A stretch of DNA of 64,000 nucleotides, from positions 29,708-93,707 of the forward strand of contig JAQUFE010000003.1 in assembly GCA_028684815.1 (NCBI GenBank), in the 5' to 3' direction. This document shows, in pieces, positions 14,008-60,803 of this stretch (positions within the stretch are counted from its first letter, which is position 1; every line of letters starts with the position of its first letter). Source of the DNA: Sulfurimonas sp. (GTDB taxonomy: Bacteria > Campylobacterota > Campylobacteria > Campylobacterales > Sulfurimonadaceae). Made by a program: the position numbers and the translations under genes. A model generated the notes under the pieces. The model made no database searches and had not been told where the DNA came from. It saw nothing but the letters and a program-made list of their open reading frames with translations.

Positions 14008-14715
14008 TCAGTTTTTATTTAATGAGAGAACTATCTTATCTACCATTTTCATAACAAACTCAGCACTCTCTATAGCACTAGTCTCTAAAAACTCATCAAA
14101 AGAAAAACTCGCATCCATATCAGCAGCATCGCTAATAGCGCGAAGTATGAAAAAATCAACTCCTAGAGCATCACAAACAACTGCAACACTCCCACCTTCC
14201 ATCTCAAGAGCATCTGCTTCAAAAGTTGAGCCTATCCAGTTCTTTCTCTCTTCATTTGCAACAAACTGATCACCAGTTGCAATAATGCCCTCAACTACAC
14301 TTTTACCCATCTCTTTAGCTACTTGTTTGCTCATCTCTATTAGAGCTTTATTAGCTTCAACAAAAACACTTCCCTCAGGAACAAAACCAAAAGGATGCCC
14401 AAAAGCTGTTATATCTAAATCGTGTTGAGCTAGTTTTGTAGCTACTATCAAATCACCTACTTTTAACTTAGGTGATACCGCACCAGCTACACCTGAGAAA
14501 AGCAGTTTTTCTGCTCCAAAATGCTCTATCATAGTAGATGCAGTAAGTGCTGAGAAGACTTTTCCAATCTTACTATATGCTATAACTAACTCAATGCCAT
14601 TATAAGTAGCTTCATAGTACTTATTTCCAGCATAGTTTGTTGTTTTGTAATCTTTTAATTTCTCTAAAATTGGTGCTATCTCTTCTGGCATCGCACCCAT
14701 TATTGCTATTTTCAT
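14008..14715 (-). CDS. mtnN: 5'-methylthioadenosine / S-adenosylhomocysteine nucleosidase
   Basis: 235 aa, full length. Motifs include the N-terminal IMGAMPEEIAP with the catalytic Glu of PEE, SGVAGAVSP, the nucleoside site ALEMEGGSVA and the catalytic Asp of AISDAADMD. It hydrolyses MTA and SAH, recycling by-products of SAM reactions. In Helicobacter and Campylobacter the same enzyme also cleaves aminodeoxyfutalosine for menaquinone synthesis, a likely extra role here but one not visible in the sequence. It lies 11 bases upstream of the ttcA-like gene on the same strand. Confidence 0.93.
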   Translation of the reverse strand: MKIAIMGAMPEEIAPILEKLKDYKTTNYAGNKYYEATYNGIELVIAYSKIGKVFSALTASTMIEHFGAEKLLFSGVAGAVSPKLKVGDLIVATKLAQHDLDITAFGHPFGFVPEGSVFVEANKALIEMSKQVAKEMGKSVVEGIIATGDQFVANEERKNWIGSTFEADALEMEGGSVAVVCDALGVDFFILRAISDAADMDASFSFDEFLETSAIESAEFVMKMVDKIVLSLNKN

Positions 14716-14790
14716 ATATTACCTTAGTGTTTACTATTTGAGCGATTGTAGCAAAATAATGGTTAAAATTATTTTATCTCCAATGAGTCA

Positions 14791-15909
14791 TCATCCTTTT
14801 TCCAAACTACGTCTAAAAATCGCAAGTGTTACAAGAAAAAAGATCATACCTATAACAAAGATCCAGAGCATATCAATCCAAACAACAGCAAACCCAGCAT
14901 CTCTATATAGAACTGCCTGTGCAAAGCTTACGAAGTGAGTGTTAGGTAGAAGATACATCAAATACTGAAGTGCTTGAGGCATGCTCTCAAAAGGAGTAAA
15001 TGCACCTGACAAAATCATAATTGGTAAGATTGTTAAGATTAAGATCAAGCCAAATTGTGGCATTGTACGTGCGATCGTACCCATAAAGATCCCCATTGAA
15101 GCGGTAGCAAAAAGAATCAATGAAGTGCCTGCTAAAAAGAGAAAAAGTGAACCAGCTAGTGGTACGCTAAGGATCCCTTTAACAACAAAGAGTAGTGCAA
15201 ATATTACTGCAACAAGTACAATAAAACTCATCGACCATATCTTACCAAGCATAATCTCCGTTGCATTAACGGGAAGTACCAAGAGGTGCTCTAATGTTCC
15301 ATGTTCACGCTCACGAATGAGTGCAGCACCTGATAGCATAATAGAGATCATTGTAATATAATTAATGATTGCCATAATCCCTCCAAACCAAGTGCTATCA
15401 AGTGTTGGGTTGTACTTCATCCTAGTAACTATGTTGATGGGAAGTTTCATCTCTGTAGTTTGCAAAAAATCTGCAAGCTCTTTAGTGATGATTTGTTGTA
15501 TATAACCAGCACCAATCCCCGCTTGTGTTAAGCGTGTTGCGTCTATATTTAGTTGCAGATCTGCCACTTTGCTACTAACTATATCCTTTTCAAACCCTGA
15601 GGGGATAACAACTACAAAGGTATATCTTCCTGCGTCCATACCTGCATCCATCTCATCAGATGAGATAAGACCAGACATCTTAAAGCGCGGTGGATAGAAA
15701 GAGCTGCTAAGTTGCCTTGAGATTGTAGTTCGATCTTGATCTACAAAGGCTATTGGTGCATTGTGCACTTCAACTGAAGCAGATGTTGCATCTATATAGA
15801 TCCCAAAAGAGAAGACCCAAGCAATAAGAATCATCATAACTTTATCGCCCAATAAAATGCGAAGCTCTTTAATCCCAAAACGAAAAATATTAAGTAGATG
15901 TTTTCTCAC
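14791..15909 (-). CDS. YhhJ-like ABC-2 transporter permease
   Basis: 372 aa. One membrane segment at about residues 24-40 is followed by a large extracytoplasmic domain (residues 45-175) and then five C-terminal membrane segments, the ABC-2 permease layout. The motif LIREREHGTLEHLLVLPV before the membrane block is diagnostic. It follows the RbbA-like gene by one base, as in the E. coli yhiI-rbbA-yhhJ cluster. It probably forms an export channel with the permease half of RbbA, drawing on the HlyD and TolC partners encoded upstream. The substrate is unknown. Confidence 0.87.
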   Translation of the reverse strand: MRKHLLNIFRFGIKELRILLGDKVMMILIAWVFSFGIYIDATSASVEVHNAPIAFVDQDRTTISRQLSSSFYPPRFKMSGLISSDEMDAGMDAGRYTFVVVIPSGFEKDIVSSKVADLQLNIDATRLTQAGIGAGYIQQIITKELADFLQTTEMKLPINIVTRMKYNPTLDSTWFGGIMAIINYITMISIMLSGAALIREREHGTLEHLLVLPVNATEIMLGKIWSMSFIVLVAVIFALLFVVKGILSVPLAGSLFLFLAGTSLILFATASMGIFMGTIARTMPQFGLILILTILPIMILSGAFTPFESMPQALQYLMYLLPNTHFVSFAQAVLYRDAGFAVVWIDMLWIFVIGMIFFLVTLAIFRRSLEKG

Positions 15910-15910
15910 T

Positions 15911-18619
15911 CTATTTCTCCTGCTGTTTTAAAAGCATCATACTACTGAGTGTTATCACAATTATTGCTATCAATAATGCAAGCATATCAGGATAAACTCC
16001 TGAAAAATCAACATTTTTACTAAAGATAGCCCTACTTATATTGATAAAATATGTCACTGGAAAAATAGTACCAATAATAGCACCTACGCCCTCAAGAGAA
16101 CTTACAGGATCTTTAAGTCCAGAGTAGTTAATAGTTGGTATAAGTGTAAGTATTGCAGTAGCGGCTAAAGCAGCTATCTGAGTCTGTGCGAAAGAGGAGA
16201 TTAAAAAACCCAATCCAGTTGTGGTGATTACAAAAAGTAAAGCTGCAAGGCTAAGTAGTGCTAAGCTCCCTTTTAAAGGTACATCAAACAGCCAAACAGA
16301 TAGTGCCACTAAACCAAAGAAACCTATCATACTTACAACAACATAGGGAATTTGTTTGCCTATTAAAAATTCTAACTTAGTAACAGGTGTCGCATAGAAG
16401 TTAATAATAGATCCCATCTCTTTTTCGCGAACAACACTAAGTGCCATCAATATAGCAGGAACAAAGATAAGTAGCATGGGAATAACTGCTGGAACCATTG
16501 CATTTAGACTTTTAAAGTCTGGGTTGTAACGGTAACGCATCTCTATGTTTGCAGCTGAGAGTGTCGGAACATAGCCTAAGGTTTGCTTTGCTAAGTGTTT
16601 AATATAGTCATAGTGCATTCCAGTTAAATAACCTTTTATTGTCTCCGCACGAAAAGGCATTGCGCCATTTACCCAAACCGCTACATCCACAGATTCTGAT
16701 CGAAGCAGACTCTTAGCAAAACCGGGAGGAATTACTACAGCGACAATAATTTCTCCGCTTTTCATTCTCCTATCTAGTTCCTCTTGTGAACTCAAATCAC
16801 TCTCTTGTACAAAATAGCGAGATCCTGAGATATTTTGAATATAGTCTCTACTTTGTGGAGTTTTATCTTGATCTAGTGCAGAAAATTTTAGATCTTCTAC
16901 ATCTAGTGTAATACCATAACTCATTATAAATAGTAAAAAAACCATACCTACTAGTGCAAAAGTTAAGCGAATTGGATCACGAACTAACTCTAACGACTCT
17001 CGATAACTATATCCAAAAAGTCTCCGCAGACTAAATTCTTTATGCTTATGAAGACTATCTTCCATAAGCTTAATATCTGTATCAGCAATTTTTTCCTGTG
17101 TAGCATCTTCAAGGTAGTCAATAAATGCCTCTTCAAGTGTATCTTTGCCTTTTTTCTCTATCAACACTTTTGGTGTATCACTATCAAGAACTTTTCCCTG
17201 ATGCATCAAAGAGATGCGATCACATCTCTCTCCTTCATTCATAAAGTGAGTAGATATAAAAATAGTTACACCATCACCTCTTGCAAGATCTACTAGTAGT
17301 TTCCAAAAACTATCTCTTGAGATTGGATCAACTCCCGATGTCGGCTCATCAAGTATTAGCATTTGTGGTTTATGAATCACTGCAACTGCTAAAGAGAGTC
17401 TCTGACGAATACCAAGAGGTAGGTTTGATGCATTTACATCTCTATAATCATTGAGATAAAAACGCTCTAACATCTCTTTTATACGCTTTTGGATCTTCTC
17501 CTTTGGTATATGAAAAAGTTGTGCATGAAGGAGTAGATTTTGATAGACACTAAGTTCTGTATATAGCGAGAAGGCTTGTGTCATATAACCAACATTATTT
17601 CGAATTTCAATATCTCCGCTATTGGCAAGTTTACCAAAGAGCCATGCTTCTCCTTCGCTTTGTGGTAAAAGTCCTGTTAGCATCTTCATAGTCGTGGTTT
17701 TACCACAACCATTTGAGCCTAAAAACCCAAAGATCTCCCCTTTCCTGATTTTAAAGCTAACACTATCAACTGCTATAAAATCACCAAATTTTTTAGTCAA
17801 TCCCTCTGCTACAATGGCATAGTCTTCATTTTTATCTTCATACTTAGGAACAACAAGCTTCTCATGTCCTCTGCTCTTTTCTTCTGGGAGCAAAGCGATA
17901 AAAGCTTCATCTAAATTATCTGTATCGGTTTTCTCTTTTAGCTCAAAGGGCGTACCTCTAAAGAGTATCTCTCCATCATCCATAGCGATGATATGATCAA
18001 ACTCTTCTGCCTCTTCCATATATGCTGTAGCTACCAAGACACTCATATTTGAGCGATTTTGGCGTATATGATCTATAAGTGTCCAAAACTGTTTTCTTGA
18101 GAGTGGATCTACACCAGTAGTAGGCTCATCTAATATTAAGAGATCTGGGTCATGAATCAAAGCACAACAGAGTCCCAGTTTTTGTTTCATACCACCAGAG
18201 AGTTTTCCAGCAGGACGATCTTTGAAATTGAGAAGCCCTGTACTCTGCAGAAGAAGTTCTATTCGAGATTCTCTCTCTTTTTTATCTTGTTGAAAAAGAC
18301 GAGCAAAAAACTCTATATTTTCATAAACAGAGAGTGACATATAGAGATTTTTACCAAGTCCTTGTGGCATATAAGCGATGCGTGAACAAATGCTATTTCG
18401 GTTTTTTTTATTCTCTATATCAATATCCAAAACTTCAATAGTTCCACTTTGTATTTTTCTCACTCCAGATATCAATGCCATAGTAGTTGATTTACCAACA
18501 CCGTCAGGTCCAATAAATCCAACCATAGATCCAGCAGGAATCTCTAAAGTAATATTATCAATGGCTACTACATCACCGTAGTGATGTGAGACACCTTTGA
18601 GTCTTGCAACAATATTCAT
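15911..18619 (-). CDS. RbbA/YhiH-like ABC transporter: two ATPase domains fused to a permease
   Basis: 902 aa. NBD1 has Walker [11 protein letters not shown], signature LSGGMKQKL and Walker [11 protein letters not shown], but its switch region reads [10 protein letters not shown], where STH is usual, so the H-loop His is missing. NBD2 (about residues 268-500) has [10 protein letters not shown] and [10 protein letters not shown] with an intact [10 protein letters not shown], but its signature is [10 protein letters not shown] instead of LSGGQ. An ABC-2 permease domain of six predicted segments follows (about 530-900). Two NBDs with complementary defects in one chain are, as far as I recall, characteristic of this family. 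It sits between the HlyD-like gene and yhhJ, with gaps of 2 and 1 bases. Confidence 0.87.
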
Positions 18620-18621
18620 TT

Positions 18622-19611
18622 TTAATTATCACGACTTTTTGAGTCTGCTAAATTATTTAAAAACTCAGGCCAAGGGCTTGAGCTCTTTAGTTGTATATAA
18701 GCGACTCCAGGCAAACCAGTCTTTACTTTTTCTATATGTTTAGCCAATAGATCTGCATCAATTTTAACTTTTATGCGAAACATCAACTTTTCACGCTCAC
18801 TCTCTGTCTCTATCTCTTTTGGAGTAAATTGTGCCTCTGCCGAGATAAAAGTAACTTTAGCAGGAATAGCAACACTTGGTAGAGCATCTAGGATAATACG
18901 AGCTTCTGAACCGATATTGATATGAGCAACTTTGGAAGTTGGTAAAAAAACTGTCATAAATACATCTGTTAACTTCAAAACAGAGAGAACCCGTCCTCCA
19001 TTACCAACAACTTCACCAGGTTCAACTAAACGATATAATACTCGTCCATCAATAGGTGATTTTAATATGCTATCTTCTATATTAACCTTGATAGTTTCAA
19101 CTAGTGCTTGAGCCTCTTTAATAGCAGCTTTAGCACTTGTTGCTTGTGCTTTAGCTGCTGCAAGTCCAGCTTTTAAACGCTCCACTGTTGTCTCATCTTG
19201 TTGCAGCGTAGCAAGAGGAATATTTTTATCTACATAGAGTGATTCTGAGCGAACTAAATTTTTAAGTGCATGATCTAGTCCACTTTGCCGCTCGGTAACT
19301 ATCGCTTGTGCATACTTTTCATTTTGTAGAGATTGCTCTTTTTTAGCTTCTGCTTGCATAAGAGATGCTTCAAGTGACTTGATATCCAAGCGTACAAGTA
19401 TTTCATCTTTGCTTACCATATCCCCTTCTTCAACCATGATCTCCTCTACTCTAGCGGAGAGTTTACTGGAAATATCAACTTGTGTACCTTCAATACGACC
19501 ATTACTTGAAGCAAATCCATCAAGCTCATTTGCTTGATTTAAGTAGCGATAAACAAATATAAGTGCAATAACAGTAGATGCGATAAGTAGGCTATATAAA
19601 ATTCTTTTCAT
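18622..19611 (-). CDS. HlyD-family periplasmic adaptor (YhiI-like)
   Basis: 329 aa with an N-terminal membrane anchor (residues 5-22). The lipoyl/barrel-sandwich halves flank a coiled-coil hairpin at about residues 80-180 ([17 protein letters not shown] and [22 protein letters not shown]), and a beta-barrel domain follows. Such adaptors bridge an inner-membrane ABC transporter and TolC. It stands 2 bases before the RbbA-like gene and 7 bases after the TolC-like gene, completing a tripartite exporter. Confidence 0.9.
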
Positions 19612-19618
19612 AAAAGAG

Positions 19619-21952
19619 TCACTCCTTGTTGTTTTTTAAAGCGAGTTCAAGACGCTTGATCAACTGATCATAGCCATCACTATCGAAAAAGAAATCATAT
19701 GAGCCAATATCATGTTGCAACTCTATAAAATCGATCATAAACTTGTAAATGGCACTAGCAGATGCTTGTTCAGATGAAATCATACTCAACTGAGATGTCA
19801 AAAGAACAGTCATAGAATGCGTTCCTTTTGCATAATTTTGTCGAATAATTTCAAAGCTTTTTTTTGCAGCTCTTGCTGCTTGTTTTGAGAGCTGTATAGA
19901 TGGATAACTAGCTTTTATATCGTGCATATCTGAACGAATACGCTCCTTTGTAAGCTCTCTTTGCATCTCTTTCTCAACACCTAATTGCTGTAGTTTTAGA
20001 GATGAGCGGCTTTTACGAGCATTTTTTGCACCACCTTCGAAGAGTGGCAAAGAGACTATAACTCCAACCTGCCAATTGTTTTCATTTTCAAGAGAGACTC
20101 CCAAAAGTTGGTTTCTCTCTTCATCAAAAACACGAGAAACTTCACCTTGTAAGATAACATCTGGTACCCAGTATGAGTGATTATCAGATCTGAGTTGTCT
20201 CTTTTGAGCACCAAGTTGTGCATCTATCATATTGAGTTCTGGTGCAAGTTCTAAGCCTTCATTAACAAAAAATTGTGTCACATATTCATAGTTTTTCTCA
20301 TTTGAGATCTCATTTAATAGTGTTTGATATGGGATTAGACGATTTAAATCTTTTAGATCAATAGGTTGTGTAGCTATTGATTCTGTCATTGGGCGGTGTA
20401 AAATGCGTTTTAAAAGATCTTTTGCTTTTAGAAGACTTGATTGTGCACTAAGAAGATTTTGACGCACTCTTGTGATCTGACTCTCCCAGTAGTAAACATC
20501 AGATAGATCCGAAGCTCCTGAGTTAACACGACTATTTGCTAGATCTAGATTTGTTTGTGTCAAACTTAGATTATATTGTGCAATATTTTTATATGTCTGA
20601 GCTACAAGCACATTTAAAAACACAGTAGTAGCTTGTTTAACTACTTCAAGTTCAAGTGCTTTTTGTTGAGCTTCTTGTGCAATTTGCAGTTTTTTTTGGA
20701 TCTCTAAATTTGCCAAAGCCTTTTGTGAAAAAAGGATCTGTTCTAAAGCAATCGACCCAAAAGTTGTCTTTTGAGCATTAAAACCACTCTTAACATAGGC
20801 ATTATTACTATTTACTTGAGTATATCCAAGGTTTGCTCTTATTTGTGGATATAAAATTGAGCGTACCTCTGCAATATTTTCTTCAGACGCTTTAAGACTA
20901 AGTTGCCCAGCGATAATGTTTAAATTGTTAAGAATTGCTTCTTCTGCAACTCTTGAGAGTGTTAATGGTGTAGTATCATCCCTATCTTCATAGAGTAGTT
21001 TTGCATGTCGAAGCAGTTGGAAGTTTGGATAAACTCCAATGGCACCTGCCGTTTGCATATTAATAGTTAACTCATGTTTTTCTCTAAAGTTAGTTGGTTG
21101 TCTATTTGCAGACTCTCCGCGAAGTACTGAGTGCATGTTTAGTGCTAAACGACGAACTCTTTTAGAAATATCCTTCTCACTATAAGATGAGGCTAAAATT
21201 CCATCAACGGGGCTAAACTCATATGATAAGCTGTAACTTGGTAGTTGCTTTATTATCAAGCCTTTGATCAACTCTTCTTTTGCACTTCTTTTTAGCAAAG
21301 GAAGCTGTGTAATCATAATAGCTTCTGTTTCTGAGGGGATCATTTCTAGTACAGCATCATGCTCACTTTTAATGCGTACAAATGTTAACACAACATCCGC
21401 CTTAGCCGCAAATAGCTTCGCGTGATTGATTGCTTCTGGAAAAAGAGCATAAAGATTCTCATCTATTACAAGTGCAAGATTTGTAAACTCTGTAATCTCT
21501 TTAAATGTTTTAAGTTCTTCATCAAAAGCACTATCAATTTTAAGATAATTAAAATTTTCACTCTTAGCTTGTGCATGCGTCATATCAAAAATAAATGGAG
21601 CAAAAGTTGGCTTATTTAGCTTTATACTTTGACTTGCAATCTGACTTGAATCTACTCCTATTGTCACAACAAAGTCAACTTCTGAATTTTCTTGCAAATC
21701 ATTGAAGTGTTTTTGGATTAGTTGAGTTGAATAGTTTCCATTTAGTTGAACTGACAAAGGAAAGTTAATGATAAACTCACCTTTAGTCAATATAGAAAGC
21801 TCTTCTTTGAGTAGTTCTTCAATCACCTCTGATGAAGCACTTTTACCGTCACTTAGCACAGCAATATTGACAGATGGCAGACTATTGATTACAGCAAAAG
21901 CATTTAAAGAAAACAATAGAGCAAATATAAAGCCAAATAGCTTACTTTTCAT
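19619..21952 (-). CDS. TolC-family outer-membrane factor with N-terminal binding-protein-like domain
   Basis: 777 aa, about 300 residues longer than a usual TolC protein. It has a signal peptide (residues 1-22). Residues about 25-300 do not look like TolC: alternating strands and helices such as VNIAVLSDGKSASS, DFVVTIGVDSSQIA and LALVIDENLYALFPEA resemble the ABC_sub_bind type of periplasmic binding domain. TolC repeats follow (LTLSRVAEEAILNNLNI to the C-terminus, with long coiled-coil segments). The frame is continuous, so this is a real fusion and not two ORFs. It is the first gene of the export operon. A built-in sensor for the exported compound is possible. Confidence 0.8.
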   Translation of the reverse strand: MKSKLFGFIFALLFSLNAFAVINSLPSVNIAVLSDGKSASSEVIEELLKEELSILTKGEFIINFPLSVQLNGNYSTQLIQKHFNDLQENSEVDFVVTIGVDSSQIASQSIKLNKPTFAPFIFDMTHAQAKSENFNYLKIDSAFDEELKTFKEITEFTNLALVIDENLYALFPEAINHAKLFAAKADVVLTFVRIKSEHDAVLEMIPSETEAIMITQLPLLKRSAKEELIKGLIIKQLPSYSLSYEFSPVDGILASSYSEKDISKRVRRLALNMHSVLRGESANRQPTNFREKHELTINMQTAGAIGVYPNFQLLRHAKLLYEDRDDTTPLTLSRVAEEAILNNLNIIAGQLSLKASEENIAEVRSILYPQIRANLGYTQVNSNNAYVKSGFNAQKTTFGSIALEQILFSQKALANLEIQKKLQIAQEAQQKALELEVVKQATTVFLNVLVAQTYKNIAQYNLSLTQTNLDLANSRVNSGASDLSDVYYWESQITRVRQNLLSAQSSLLKAKDLLKRILHRPMTESIATQPIDLKDLNRLIPYQTLLNEISNEKNYEYVTQFFVNEGLELAPELNMIDAQLGAQKRQLRSDNHSYWVPDVILQGEVSRVFDEERNQLLGVSLENENNWQVGVIVSLPLFEGGAKNARKSRSSLKLQQLGVEKEMQRELTKERIRSDMHDIKASYPSIQLSKQAARAAKKSFEIIRQNYAKGTHSMTVLLTSQLSMISSEQASASAIYKFMIDFIELQHDIGSYDFFFDSDGYDQLIKRLELALKNNKE

Positions 21953-22036
21953 GAAGCTCTCCTTTGATTTTAAATAAACACTATTAGCTTAAGAAGTGTC
22001 TTTATTTATTAAACCCTCTGATTATATTATATACTA

Positions 22037-22096
22037 GATTCCATGTCAAGCACGAAATGACGAGGCACACGTCATCCTGAACTTGATTCAGGATCT
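22037..22096. repeat. Intergenic palindromic repeat, family copy 1
   Basis: This contains GATTCCATGTCAAGCACGAAATGACG followed by a 26-base unit, GTCATCCTGAACTTGATTC then AGGATCT. The 26-base unit is identical to 60744-60769, 38.7 kb away. ATCCTGAA-CTTGA-TTCAGGAT is a perfect 8-bp hairpin. It is non-coding, between the TolC-like gene and fabD. Confidence 0.85.
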
Positions 22097-22136
22097 AATT
22101 TAATAATTGTTCAGAGCACTCGATTATTAATTAGAT
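22093..22136 (-). terminator. Long AT-rich inverted repeat just after fabD
   Basis: ATCTAATTTAATAAT and ATTATTAATTAGAT pair over about 14 bp with one bulged base and a 15-base loop, 8 bases beyond the fabD stop. It may end fabD transcription, but there is no clear U-run, so the terminator role is tentative. It abuts the palindromic repeat to its left. Confidence 0.4.
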
Positions 22137-22143
22137 TCTATAG

Positions 22144-23082
22144 TTATTTACAAATTTCTTCTATAACACTCTTTAAACTCGTCATATCAGAGATATTTAA
22201 AGTTGTAAGATCTTTTGCTATTCTTCTATTTAATCCCTTTAGAGTTGAGCCATTTCCAAACTCTATTGCTAAATCAACGTCATTAGATATAGCCAAGATT
22301 GATTGCTTATACTTTACAGGTTTTACAAGTTGTTCACTTAACAAGGAGACGGCATCTGATTTCGTGCTATAGGCTTTTGTTGTAACATTAGAGATTACAG
22401 GAGCTTCAAAGCTATCTTTTATCATGTTATTCATCATCTCTTCTAATGGCTTTTGCGCAGATGCTAAGATCTCACAATGCGATGCAACAGACATATTAAG
22501 CAGTAGTGCTCGCTTTGCGCCAGCGTCTTTAAAAGTCTGCTCTAGTGAGACTAGATCTTCTTTCATACCAGCTACAACGAGTTGTCCATCTTGGTTATAG
22601 TTTGCAGGCCAAACTTTTTTGCCCTCTTTTTGTGCATCTTCGCAGATTAACTCTACACTTGCATCATCAAGCCCAACTATTGCCATCATTCCAGCTTCTA
22701 TTGTCTGGCAAGCCTTTTGCATATAAGCACCACGATTATGCACAAGCTCTACTGCATCAAGGTAGTCTATTGCTCCGCTTGCACATAGTGCTGAGAATTC
22801 TCCTAGAGAGTGACCCAAAAACATCGTAGCTTTAATATCAGGACAAGCATCTTTAAAAAGTTTGTAAGCTATCATCTGCACCAAAAGAATTGCAGGTTGT
22901 GTGTAAGCTGTTTGATTGAGCTTTTCATTCTCTTCAAATATAAGCTCTTTAAAATCTACACCTATTCTTTGTGAAGCTTTTTCAAACATCTCTTTAGCCA
23001 GATTTGAATTTTCATAAAAGTCTCTACCCATTCCAACTGCTTGGCTACCCTGCCCTGCAAATATCATTGCTATTTTACTCAT
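22144..23082 (-). CDS. fabD: Malonyl-CoA:ACP transacylase
   Basis: 312 aa, full length. The N-terminus MIFAGQGSQAVGMG, the nucleophile elbow FLGHSLGEFSAL and the catalytic His in VASHCEIL are all present. It loads malonyl groups onto acyl carrier protein in fatty acid synthesis. It appears to be a single-gene unit, with 261 bases upstream and the repeat element downstream. Confidence 0.95.
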   Translation of the reverse strand: MSKIAMIFAGQGSQAVGMGRDFYENSNLAKEMFEKASQRIGVDFKELIFEENEKLNQTAYTQPAILLVQMIAYKLFKDACPDIKATMFLGHSLGEFSALCASGAIDYLDAVELVHNRGAYMQKACQTIEAGMMAIVGLDDASVELICEDAQKEGKKVWPANYNQDGQLVVAGMKEDLVSLEQTFKDAGAKRALLLNMSVASHCEILASAQKPLEEMMNNMIKDSFEAPVISNVTTKAYSTKSDAVSLLSEQLVKPVKYKQSILAISNDVDLAIEFGNGSTLKGLNRRIAKDLTTLNISDMTSLKSVIEEICK

Positions 23083-52500: not shown

Positions 52501-53331
52501 ATGACTAAATTAATGACAAGCAACGAGATTCCACAACTACATCCTAATCTAGGTGAACACACTAAAAGAGTGGTCATAGAGAGATTTGATTTAGATGGAG
52601 TCGATACCTTTGAAGACTATGTTATAAAAGAGCAAAGAGTTAAGTTTTTTTTAAATGGAGTTAAGTTTCTCTCAGTCATGTGCATCGCAAAATATCAAGA
52701 TGCACATATTGTAGGTTTTTTACTCTCAGAAGCTGTCATTAAGAGTCTTGATGATGTTAAGAGTCTTGAAGTTAGCGATGATGGGCTCAGCGTCTATGTA
52801 GATGCTGATGTCTCTCAAGAAGGATATGATAATCTCTTTAAAGAAAAAACTCTAACTTCAGGCTGTTGTATCGGTGTAACAGGAAATGCTGAAGAGCTTT
52901 TTAAATGCTCATTTATTAGCACTGACTACACTATTAGTGCAGAAGATGCACTAAAGACAATGAGAAGTTTTTCAAAGCCATCTGAGCTATTTGATAATAC
53001 TGGTTGCGTTCACAAAGCAAGACTTGTTTTAGAAGATGGTAGCTTTTTTGAAGCTGAGGACATAGGAAGACACAACGCTATTGATAAGGTTGTTGGTCTT
53101 GCATCTCTTAGTAAAAAAGATATACAAAGATCTGTTTTATATGCAAGTGGAAGATTATCTATGGAGATGGTAGTGAAGTGTGTTATGCACAAGATTCCCA
53201 TAGTTATATCAAAAGCTGCTGTTACATTTCAAGGTATAAAAGCTGCGAATGAGCATGGCATCACTCTTGTTGGTTTTGCAAGAGGAAACAAGATGAATCT
53301 ATATACCCATTCTGCTAGAATAGGTGTATAG
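52501..53331 (+). CDS. fdhD: FdhD sulfurtransferase for formate dehydrogenase maturation
   Basis: 276 aa. The active-site region is LTSGCCIGVTGN, a CC pair where E. coli has CxxC. Other family blocks are NTGCVHKARLVLEDG, AEDIGRHNAIDKVVG and SGRLSMEMVVKCVMHKIPIVISKAA. FdhD passes sulfur from a cysteine desulfurase (IscS in E. coli) to the molybdenum cofactor. It is the last gene of the operon, starting 5 bases after fdhC. The NifS-like gene 331 bases later is a candidate partner. Confidence 0.94.
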   Translation: MTKLMTSNEIPQLHPNLGEHTKRVVIERFDLDGVDTFEDYVIKEQRVKFFLNGVKFLSVMCIAKYQDAHIVGFLLSEAVIKSLDDVKSLEVSDDGLSVYVDADVSQEGYDNLFKEKTLTSGCCIGVTGNAEELFKCSFISTDYTISAEDALKTMRSFSKPSELFDNTGCVHKARLVLEDGSFFEAEDIGRHNAIDKVVGLASLSKKDIQRSVLYASGRLSMEMVVKCVMHKIPIVISKAAVTFQGIKAANEHGITLVGFARGNKMNLYTHSARIGV

Positions 53332-53364
53332 ACTATTTGCCACACTGAAGAGAGTGACTCCTCT

Positions 53365-53418
53365 TTTGTAAAGAAACTTCGATTTGTAAAGAAACTTCGT
53401 TTTCTAAAGAAACTTCGT
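53365..53418. repeat. Three 18-base tandem direct repeats
   Basis: TTTGTAAAGAAACTTCGA, TTTGTAAAGAAACTTCGT and TTTCTAAAGAAACTTCGT stand in direct succession, followed by a partial TTTGTG. Copies differ at one or two positions, so the array is recent. There is no spacer, so this is not a CRISPR. Confidence 0.93.
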
Positions 53419-53485
53419 TTTGTGGGAGGGATTACATATCCCAAAATTATTTCCAAACTATGAGAAGTGAATTTTTTCATAATCA

Positions 53486-53646
53486 GCAAGGCACTCCAAT
53501 GTATGCTTCCCCTAGCTAAAGAGGAGTACCTTGCTTAAACCTTGTTAGGTGCTCCAACATACGCTTCCCCTAGCTAAAGAGGGGCACCTACTTAAATTTT
53601 GTTAGGTACTTCAAGATATGCTTCCCCTAGCTAAGGGAAGTACCTA
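53486..53646. repeat. Three tandem 57-58-base hairpin units with compensatory arms
   Basis: Unit arms: GCAAGGCACTCC/GGAGTACCTTGC (53486-53534), TAGGTGCTCC/GGGGCACCTA (53546-53590) and TAGGTACTTC/GAAGTACCTA (53603-53646). All units share the interior GCTTCCCCTAGCTAA. Arms 2 and 3 differ at two 5' positions; one is matched by a change in the 3' arm that restores a pair (G-C to A-T), the other keeps a wobble or full pair. Unit 3 is perfect over 10 bp. An alternative inner stem CCCCT/AGGGG exists in unit 2. Confidence 0.9.
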
Positions 53647-56997: not shown

Positions 56998-58656
56998 TTA
57001 TTGGAATTTGTCTTTTATAAGATCCCCTAGAGAGTTTGACGTAGTATCATTAATCTCATCTAAAAGTTCTTGGTTTTTAATATAGTCTAGTTTTTTAACA
57101 GATAGACGGATACGGTCTCTTTTTGTATCTATAACTGCGATTGCTGCTTCTATCTCTTGGCCTACTTCTAACTCCTCTTTTACTAGTGGAGCTAAGTCTT
57201 CATCACGAATAAGTGCATCTACCCCATCTTCTAGTGATACAAAAACACCAAAATCTTTGATATCACGAATAGTTCCCTTAACAGTTGTGTTTACTCTATG
57301 GTTTGTAGCAAACTTGTCAATAGGACTCTCTAGTAGAGTTTTACGGTTTAGTGATATTTTTTGGTCTTCTTCGTTGATCTTAGCAATCTTAACTTCAACT
57401 TCTTCACCAATTTTTAAAACATCTTTACACTTGATGTTTTTATCCCATGAGATGTCTTGATTGTGAAGAAGTCCTTCTACTGAACCAACACGAACAAACG
57501 CACCAAAGTCAGTTAAAGAAGTAACTTCTCCAGTTACTACATCACCTTCACGAAAGTTTTTGATAAACTCATCAAATGGTTTTGGAAGTAGTCTCTTTAG
57601 TGAAACTCTCAGTTTATGTGTTTTAGGATTTATCTCAATAACTTCAACATCAATCTCTTGTCCAACTGTTAAATAATCATTTGGATTTTTAACATTTTTG
57701 CTCCAAGTGATTTCAGAGATGTGTAAGAAACCTTCTATATCATTTCCTAAATCAACAAAAACACCATAAGCCTCAATGTTTGAAACTGTAACAGTAATAG
57801 TATCACCCTCATCTAACTCGCTCTCAACTTCTGCCCATGGATCTGGTTGAACTGCTTTGATAGAGAGAGATAGATGTCTTTTATCTTTGTCATAAGAGAT
57901 AGCTTTTACAGTTACTGTATCACCTTCTTTATAGAGCTTTGAAGGGTTAACTGGACCTTTATAGCTGATTTCATTGTAGTGAACTAAACCATCAACACCA
58001 CCAACATCTACGAACATTCCGTAGCTAGTGATTTTCTTGATAGTACCCTCAACTAAAATATCATCTTCCATTAGTTTGTCAATGATCTCTTTTTTCTTTT
58101 TTCTCTCTTCGTTAAATAGTTTACGACGAGATACTACTATAGAGTTCTCTTCTGCATCTATCTTTACAACTTGAGCTTTTATTTTGCGACCAACAACTTC
58201 ATCACTCTCTTTAAAAGCAGCAAGTGAGCGAGGCATAAAGAAAGATACATCATCAGCTTCTACTACGTATCCACCACGATTTTTCTTAGTTATAACGCCC
58301 TCAATAATCAATTCTTCAAAGTCATCTTTGTGTGCTTCAATGAAGTCAATAGTCTTTTGTAGCTCTAACACTTTTTTGTAAGAGATTTTAGGACGCTCAT
58401 TGTAGTATCCCATAACCATTACTTTTATCTTATCGCCAGCATTAAACATTAAACTGCCATCTTTTGAGCGGATCTCATCAAGGCTAATAATACCCTCTAA
58501 CTTATCGCCAACACCTACTAATGCTCTGTTCTCATCTTCTTGAACTTCAACTATTTCGCCCTCTACGATGCGACTTGTTTCTTGTTGTTTCTCACTTGCA
58601 GCGAACATCTCTGCAAAATTTTCTTCTTCTTCAAATGATTCGTTATCGAACGCCAT
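56998..58656 (-). CDS. rpsA: 30S ribosomal protein S1
   Basis: 552 aa with six S1 repeats. Clear units are VEGTIKKITSYGMFVDVGGVDGLVHYNEI, VTVSNIEAYGVFVDLGNDIEGFLHISEI and VTGEVTSLTDFGAFVRVGSVEGLLHNQDI. The first two repeats are more divergent, as usual. It helps mRNA binding to the ribosome. The gene is followed by the small membrane protein without a gap. Confidence 0.95.
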   Translation of the reverse strand: MAFDNESFEEEENFAEMFAASEKQQETSRIVEGEIVEVQEDENRALVGVGDKLEGIISLDEIRSKDGSLMFNAGDKIKVMVMGYYNERPKISYKKVLELQKTIDFIEAHKDDFEELIIEGVITKKNRGGYVVEADDVSFFMPRSLAAFKESDEVVGRKIKAQVVKIDAEENSIVVSRRKLFNEERKKKKEIIDKLMEDDILVEGTIKKITSYGMFVDVGGVDGLVHYNEISYKGPVNPSKLYKEGDTVTVKAISYDKDKRHLSLSIKAVQPDPWAEVESELDEGDTITVTVSNIEAYGVFVDLGNDIEGFLHISEITWSKNVKNPNDYLTVGQEIDVEVIEINPKTHKLRVSLKRLLPKPFDEFIKNFREGDVVTGEVTSLTDFGAFVRVGSVEGLLHNQDISWDKNIKCKDVLKIGEEVEVKIAKINEEDQKISLNRKTLLESPIDKFATNHRVNTTVKGTIRDIKDFGVFVSLEDGVDALIRDEDLAPLVKEELEVGQEIEAAIAVIDTKRDRIRLSVKKLDYIKNQELLDEINDTTSNSLGDLIKDKFQ

Positions 58657-58756: not shown

Positions 58757-58797
58757 CTATCTATTAATATTCTTTTGTATAGAGTTTACTACATTTT
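58757..58797. repeat. 41-bp direct repeat, left copy (duplicate of ispH 3' end)
   Basis: It matches 59787-59827 at 39 of 41 positions. The right copy is the last 41 bases of ispH including its stop codon, and the repeat begins exactly at that stop. The two copies flank 989 bases holding the DUF502 gene. Confidence 0.93.
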
Positions 58798-58880
58798 AAT
58801 TTCTTACTTAATAGCAAATTTTAGTATATTTGTACACATTTGATATTATTTAAAAATTATTTAGCTTTTAGAAGATATAT

Positions 58881-59029
58881 ATGAAACCCGCTGAAATAAT
58901 AAGCATTCAACTTAAAGATACGGCTCGAGTGTAATTGATTGTAAAACAGCAATAAATGTTGCTCGACCAGTAGAAGTGTTTACTAAAGAGTTTGCTGACT
59001 CTTTAATAATCTTGGTGGACTGGGTTTAA
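58881..59029 (+). pseudogene. Possible gene fragment with frameshift
   Basis: A frame from ATG reads MKPAEIISIQLKDTARV then stops; the -1 frame from the same area reads VIDCKTAINVARPVEVFTKE then FADSLIILVDWV and stop. Joined, they look like a protein end. I do not recognise the family, and this could be chance. Confidence 0.25.
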
Positions 59030-59056
59030 GCCACTCAACGGAACTAGAGAGTAAGC

Positions 59057-59650
59057 TTACTCTATTTTGGGTTGGTTGTTTTTACCAGAAGAAATACCAG
59101 CAGTCATAATAAATCTGATAGATTCTTCAATACTCATATCAATAGGTGTGAGATTTTTTTTAGGTATGAGTAAACTGTATCCACCAATCTGATAACTCAT
59201 TTGCAAGTAAACTAGCACTGGCTCTTCTATATCAAGGTTATCAAATTTACTAAGTTCTTCTTGGGTAATTAAGCCAATAATTTTTGCATCCATCGCAGGA
59301 ATATCTACTAAAACAGTTATCTTGTCTTTTTTATCTTTCATATTTGAGAAGAAGTTGTAAAAATCTTTCATACCACCAAAAACGCTACCAATAATTGGCA
59401 TTTTTTCTATTGTAGTGTCGATGAAAGTTCTAAATTTCTGCACAATCCAAAACTTTAAAAGTATCCCAATAATGTAAACAAATACAAGTCCTAAAACAAT
59501 GCCTAAACCTGGTACATAATATTCCTCAGGGAGCATAAGAAGTAAAAGCTGTTTAAAAAATGTTTCTGTCTTTTCTAAAATCCAAATAATAATATAAAAA
59601 GCCAAAGCCGTAGGAAGTATAAGACCTAAACCATTAAAAAATGTTTTCAC
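59057..59650 (-). CDS. DUF502-family membrane protein
   Basis: 197 aa from the GTG at 59650 (VKTFFNGLGLILPTALAFY), chosen because GAGGAG is 5 bases upstream; the ORF-track ATG 30 bases earlier would overlap this site. Two membrane helices (about 7-28 and 48-70) and then a conserved soluble part (FRTFIDTTIEKMPIIGSVFGGMKDFYNFF and VLVYLQMSYQIGGYSLLIPKKNLTPIDMSIEESIRFIMTAG) are typical of DUF502. The function is unknown. It interrupts the rpsA-ispH pair and lies between two copies of a 41-bp repeat. Confidence 0.87.
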   Translation of the reverse strand: MKTFFNGLGLILPTALAFYIIIWILEKTETFFKQLLLLMLPEEYYVPGLGIVLGLVFVYIIGILLKFWIVQKFRTFIDTTIEKMPIIGSVFGGMKDFYNFFSNMKDKKDKITVLVDIPAMDAKIIGLITQEELSKFDNLDIEEPVLVYLQMSYQIGGYSLLIPKKNLTPIDMSIEESIRFIMTAGISSGKNNQPKIE

Positions 59651-59786
59651 CGTAGTCTCCTCTCTTTTTTGCCATACCACCTCTAAGAGATGATATATGT
59701 ATATCGCTATATTCTCTCAAGGTGTAGTTATGCTTATTTCTTCTATATTTATTCCATCTCAAAAGTGTGTATAAATGAGAAAATTT

Positions 59787-59827
59787 CTATCTGTTAATAT
59801 TTTTTTGTATAGAGTTTACTACATTTT
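59787..59827. repeat. 41-bp direct repeat, right copy (within ispH)
   Basis: It is the C-terminal coding end of ispH starting at its TAG stop (59787-59789). It pairs with 58757-58797 in the same orientation, with two mismatches. Confidence 0.93.
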
Positions 59828-60620
59828 GGATAATCCAATCAGGCGTAGATGCACCAGCACTAATGCCACAAAACTCTTTATCTCTAAACCACTCATAATC
59901 TAAATCATTTTCATCTTCTATATGATAACTAGATGGACAAAACTCTTCTGAGATGCTAAAGAGTTGCTTAGTATTTGATGAGTTTTTTCCACCAATAATA
60001 ACCATAACATCAGCTCTTTTAGAGATCTTTCTAACAGCCTCTTGATTTTCAAAAGTAGCATTACAGATAGTGTTAAAGACTCTAACTTCTTTATGTCTTG
60101 GTATAAGATAGTTTGCAACTTCCATGTAGTCCTCAACTCTTCTAGTTGTTTGAGCTACAAGGGCAATCCTCTCTTTGAGTTTTACATCTTCTAAATCTTT
60201 AGGACAAGTTACAACCTTAGCCCCATAAGTAGCATAACTTTTTACTCCCTTTATCTCAGGATGGGCATCATCTCCAAAGATTACAATATCATAACCAGCT
60301 TCACTCATCTCTTGGCAAATCTGCTGTGGTTTTGTTACATAAGGGCAAGTGGCATCTACTACATCAACCCTATTTTCTATTAACTCTTCAAGTTCATTTT
60401 TGGGGATGCCATGAGTTCGAATGACTGCTTTATCACCTGTTTTGAAACTCTTATGGTCATCTGTAAGTCCAACTTTAAAGTCTTTCTCTAGTCTTGCAAT
60501 CTCTTTTGAGTTATGAATAAGTGGCCCATAAGTAGCAGAGTTTTTATTCTCTTCTGCTATCTTAATAGCACGCTTAACTCCAAAACAAAATCCATAATTT
60601 TCAGCTAATTCAATTTTCAT
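59787..60620 (-). CDS. ispH: 4-hydroxy-3-methylbut-2-enyl diphosphate reductase
   Basis: 277 aa from the ATG at 60620 (MKIELAENYGFCFGV), which has AAGGAGAC upstream. The 35 extra residues of the ORF-track start are translation of an intergenic palindromic repeat. The three cluster Cys are in YGFCFGV, DATCPYV and NTICNATFENQ. It makes IPP and DMAPP in the MEP pathway. The last 41 bases are duplicated 1030 bases away. Confidence 0.96.
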   Translation of the reverse strand: MKIELAENYGFCFGVKRAIKIAEENKNSATYGPLIHNSKEIARLEKDFKVGLTDDHKSFKTGDKAVIRTHGIPKNELEELIENRVDVVDATCPYVTKPQQICQEMSEAGYDIVIFGDDAHPEIKGVKSYATYGAKVVTCPKDLEDVKLKERIALVAQTTRRVEDYMEVANYLIPRHKEVRVFNTICNATFENQEAVRKISKRADVMVIIGGKNSSNTKQLFSISEEFCPSSYHIEDENDLDYEWFRDKEFCGISAGASTPDWIIQNVVNSIQKNINR

Positions 60621-60654
60621 TATTATCTGTCTCCTTGCCTTGAAACATATTTTA

Positions 60655-60769
60655 TCATCCTGAGATTCCGTGTCAAGCACGGAATGACGGAGGATTTTAT
60701 CATCCTGAGGTTCCGCGTCAAGCACGGGATGACAAAGTATTTTGTCATCCTGAACTTGATTCAGGATCT
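60655..60769. repeat. Intergenic palindromic repeat cluster, three units
   Basis: Units of about 45 bases start TCATCCTGA at 60655, 60700 and 60745. Unit 1 holds ATTCCGTG-TCAAG-CACGGAAT (8-bp perfect). Unit 2 is a looser version. Unit 3 is ATCCTGAA-CTTGA-TTCAGGAT. The last 26 bases (60744-60769) are identical to 22071-22096. They lie between aroA and ispH, upstream of the ispH RBS. Confidence 0.9.
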
Positions 60770-60803
60770 CTCGTTTCGTATCTAAATGAAACTCATCTCT
60801 TGT

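Follow-up and report, generated by a model that had tools for sequence, protein, structure and literature searches.

Introduction

In E. coli, circular molecules that retain part of a locus have been integrated by a single crossover, leaving that part duplicated (PMC3240628), and homology-facilitated illegitimate recombination is known from naturally competent bacteria (PMC3240628). Genomic islands can, for their part, reconstitute the genes that they enter (PMC12884075). We compared with these systems a locus in a draft genome of Sulfurimonas sp., contained in a window of 64,000 nucleotides, by which we mean the whole stretch of DNA analysed. As in a Campbell-type single-crossover insertion, a short target duplication flanks a foreign insert and the gene end is kept, but the duplication is 41 bp here, compared with 109 to 950 bp in the E. 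coli experiment (PMC3240628). An integrative island of the tyrosine recombinase type in a gene 3' end likewise has direct repeats and a restored gene end (PMC12884075). In contrast to such islands, the insert described here is about 1 kb long with one gene and no integrase, its site is not recurrent in the genus, and its repeat carries a resident lineage-specific codon. The single gene encodes a DUF502 protein, which is a clear member of that family (PF04367) by its Pfam score of 70.6 bits, above the gathering threshold (cut-off, 23.8).

The locus provides a clean case of a single, apparently foreign gene between the core genes ispH and rpsA, neither of which is harmed, and the scar at the insertion limits the mechanisms that are possible. 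It reveals no new system, being an ordinary insertion of a known kind with an informative scar. Its main use is as one case for studying the entry of small foreign DNA into genomes in the absence of an integrase.

Duplication of the ispH end

Two direct repeats, identical at 39 of 41 positions and spaced 1,030 bp from start to start, enclose 989 bp that include the DUF502 gene (Table 1). An earlier note on this DNA had described these repeats as running from the ispH stop codon, and its account was confirmed when the coordinates were re-derived. The right copy forms the 3' end of the ispH reading frame and includes its stop codon. The left copy runs into host sequence and is contiguous with the corresponding sequence of G092, the closest species compared by IspH (96% amino acid identity), exactly to position 58797, beyond which the two diverge. 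The repeat can be extended to 52 bp at 88% identity (58746/59776), with a sharp drop in identity at the ispH stop codon. The 25-bp exact core occurs twice in the window and in none of 100 shuffles, and the 41-mer, with up to three mismatches allowed, is present in only these two copies in the 2.27-Mb genome, indicating that the repeat is not due to chance. The same count rules against the alternative considered in the earlier note, that the repeat is a common genomic sequence.

Table 1. Features of the ispH-rpsA region, in window coordinates
Feature	Position	Strand	Remarks
rpsA (ribosomal protein S1)	56998..58656	-	follows ispH directly in most of the genus
Distal ispH 3'-end copy, non-coding	58757..58797	-	joined to ancestral ispH-rpsA intergenic sequence, contiguous with the G092 empty site
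Downstream insert tail, 259 bp	58798..59056	.	no convincing relative; short broken reading frames at about 58881-59029 (+)
DUF502 membrane protein gene	59057..59650	-	197 aa from likely GTG start; PF04367, E 1.2e-19
Upstream insert tail	59651..59786	-	no relative found
Proximal repeat copy, last 41 bp of ispH including stop codon	59787..59827	-	
ispH (lytB), intact	59787..60620	-	PF02401, TIGR00216

Both repeat copies encode ...SIQKNINR followed by a stop. The last IspH residue is Lys in the near relatives G092, G084, G025, and G113 and Arg in both copies here, and the C terminus is variable across the genus, as read from the ispH ends of 32 distinct congeners. The final Arg codon looks derived in this lineage. 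Since this lineage-specific codon is common to both copies, the duplicate derives from the ispH of this lineage or a very close one rather than that of a distant donor. The copies differ in two codons (AAA/AAG and AAC/AAT), in both cases synonymously. The probability that two transitions are both synonymous is approximately 0.1 (0.31 squared, from transition counts), giving a weak hint that both copies were coding when they diverged.

With synonymous differences only, both copies look like functional ispH tails, as would be expected if the segment had been imported from a close strain in which DUF502 already stood behind ispH, with one side joined by homologous recombination in ispH and the other illegitimately. 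This is the homology-facilitated illegitimate recombination of naturally competent bacteria (PMC3240628). However, the identity of ispH to that of G092 is even along the gene (0.87 to 0.94 per 100 bp), with no imported tract visible, and two illegitimate events would be needed in all. We therefore consider import from a close strain quite unlikely.

Comparison with congeners

In G092, the sequence upstream of rpsA, a single tail copy, and the rest of ispH form one continuous stretch, and the window and G092 are collinear over approximately 40 kb around the site. No second ispH tail copy was found in the downstream sequence examined in 32 distinct congeners, where the best match (27/41) was at background level. 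The rpsA start codon lies 69 to 253 bp behind ispH in 28 of these 32 genomes. The remaining four are G027, with an insert of 2.6 kb, and G078, G080, and G089, with other genes behind ispH and with rpsA on another contig; the genes seen in the ispH-rpsA gaps of these four are not integrases. Judging from match positions, ispH and rpsA are also adjacent in most of the remaining congeners, and DUF502 occupies the place between them in no other of the 135 genomes of the genus. An insertion behind ispH, as proposed in the earlier note, is therefore well supported by comparison with relatives that have one tail copy, adjacent ispH and rpsA, and no DUF502 there. The rpsA-ispH interval, which the note had singled out for this comparison, has a single copy of the ispH tail and no DUF502 segment in G092 as well as in more distant congeners.

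The genome is a draft of 101 contigs with 96% completeness, in which chimeric joining at the repeat might give the appearance of an insertion. Such an assembly artefact is nevertheless highly improbable, as the copies differ at two sites, the flanks keep their long collinearity with G092, and the left junction itself would require the repeat in some strain.

The DNA surrounding the site differs from that of G092 by approximately 10%, and the repeat copies differ from each other at 2 of 41 sites (4.9%). The insertion is thus probably younger than the split from G092, although with 41 sites this estimate is rough.

The insert between ispH and rpsA in G027 (L059:1153-3727) is a different one, with two open reading frames (ORFs), 218 and 304 aa long, of which the longer is lipoprotein-like. 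It was considered as a parallel case and set aside, as it shows no duplication of the ispH tail.

Contents of the insert and origin of DUF502

DUF502 is the sole gene-sized ORF in the insert, and neither an integrase nor a transposase ORF was found there, which bears out the earlier statement that no integrase is present. The longest DUF502 ORF spans 59057-59680, and comparison with homologues points to the GTG at 59650 as the likely start. The G+C content of the insert is 0.307, compared to 0.346 for the window. The ispH tail is followed at the insert junction by AAATTTTCTCATTTATACACAC. Among 399 genomes of the order, the insert tails had nothing better than short AT-rich matches. An Rfam scan of the region with E values up to 1 yielded no match, and DUF502 had no match in the defence-system library. 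A 48-aa conceptual peptide across the frame break of the downstream tail was discarded, since it gave nothing above noise in the genus and no Pfam match. This tail (58798-59056) folds mildly better than shuffles (z, -2.2), and a perfect 16-bp palindrome, AGAGTAAGCTTACTCT, lies at 59048-59063, across the end of DUF502.

The similarity between the ends of the insert, scored as terminal inverted repeats, was not above that of shuffles (P = 0.23). Insertion by a transposon was rejected on the lack of terminal inverted repeats and of a transposase and on a duplication that is 41 bp and not short. The usual target duplications of transposons are far shorter than this.

Of the 135 genomes of the genus, 8 have DUF502, counting the one described here. 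In G005, G012, G103, and G132, it has a common, conserved location, with an M48 peptidase gene in divergent orientation on one side and a patatin-like gene following it; G000 has the M48 peptidase gene without DUF502 or patatin alongside. The pairing of DUF502 with the patatin-like gene is conserved in four congeners (L069, L070, L071, and L072) and also in the metagenome-assembled genome (MAG) L056. In contrast, DUF502 stands alone in the insert described here. The protein shares 64% amino acid identity with its counterpart in a MAG from another Campylobacterota lineage, compared to 57 to 59% with the four native copies, and the corresponding nucleotide identities are 72% and 66 to 67%. In the DUF502 tree, the copy groups with the other-lineage MAG (support, 93/92), and the four native copies form a clade (98/99) that excludes it. 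This grouping, together with the higher identity, indicates that horizontal acquisition of DUF502 is likely, with moderate support from a small sample. A plasmid search with the DUF502 protein returned six matches, all below 60% identity and all on replicons predicted to be non-mobilizable.

Mode of insertion

Our tentative preference is for a single crossover by which a circular DNA with the ispH tail joined the chromosome. Duplication during break repair comes close behind, and we make no firm decision between the two. By the crossover, a segment of approximately 1 kb with one acquired DUF502 gene would have entered directly after the ispH stop codon, probably later than the split of the lineage from G092. 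The donor would be a circular or circularised DNA with the last 41 bp or so of ispH from the same or a very close species. A single crossover within this stretch would preserve both ispH and the sequence upstream of rpsA, and the old tail would remain at the other end of the insert as the non-coding copy. We infer both the circle and the recombinase, which may be RecA or another. A direct duplication of the putative crossover stretch flanks the insert and is absent from the empty site. However, a homology of 41 bp is near the lower limit for recombination by RecA, which counts against a crossover. The model also needs an incoming molecule that already linked the ispH tail of this lineage to DUF502, and a 25-mer scan of the 135 genomes found no molecule in the genus with the tail next to DUF502. 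A crossover would explain why the repeat ends precisely at the stop codon only if the donor sequence diverged at that point. The insert may originally have been larger than it is now.

A prior linkage of the ispH tail and DUF502 would be unnecessary if a foreign fragment had been taken up at a staggered break or replication restart behind ispH, with 41 bp of the resident tail copied to its other side, much like a very long target-site duplication. The shared lineage-specific Arg codon is expected if one copy was made from the resident gene, so that break repair accounts for it as well as a crossover does, and the lack of an integrase and of terminal inverted repeats agrees with such an origin. 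On the other hand, the end of the repeat at the exact stop codon would be a coincidence, and the length would be far above that of usual transposon target duplications. The two synonymous differences weakly suggest that both copies were once coding. Break repair or template switching is possible but somewhat less likely than the single crossover.

The earlier note had instead proposed site-specific integration. On this model, an integrative element would have entered at the ispH 3' end, its attB, and rebuilt that end, and the insert would be what is left of the element after loss of its integrase. The geometry fits this proposal, as the gene is restored at its 3' end and the direct repeats there run from the stop codon, and the 259-bp tail looks decayed. 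Gene-reconstituting islands provide a precedent (PMC12884075), and the genome has 11 tyrosine recombinase genes elsewhere, all on other contigs. However, in addition to the lack of an integrase in the insert, the ispH-rpsA intervals inspected, including those of the four congeners in which ispH and rpsA are apart, contained no integrase, and a second tail copy was present in the downstream sequence of none of the 32 congeners examined. No free attP-like copy was found in the genus by the 25-mer scan of 135 genomes. Since the C terminus of IspH varies between species, a foreign attP would need the version of this lineage, and the codon common to both copies is better explained by copying of the resident tail. 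These results do not uphold site-specific integration, and we regard an integrative element as doubtful. Movement of a one-gene cassette without an integrase, in trans by 1 of the 11 host tyrosine recombinases and with the ispH 3' end as the attachment site, appears very unlikely. A narrow literature query in which all terms were required together found no record of ispH as an integration site.

Other features of the window

No long direct repeat of a gene end was present at the other inserts of the window relative to G092. The region at 60649-60770, upstream of ispH, contains repeats with the core CCGTGTCAAGCACGGAATGAC that are absent at the same place in G092. With up to two mismatches, this core occurs 108 times in the genome, 54 times per strand, compared to 0 for the control. 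A segment of approximately 7.5 kb (14634-22144) is missing from the corresponding place in G092 and has no flanking direct repeat; judged by eye, its genes encode ABC-type export proteins, a membrane fusion protein, and an outer-membrane efflux-like protein. Short tandem-like repeats with the units AAAGAAACTTCG and GCTTCCCCTAGCTAAAGAGG are located at 53330-53596, in a stretch that G092 lacks.
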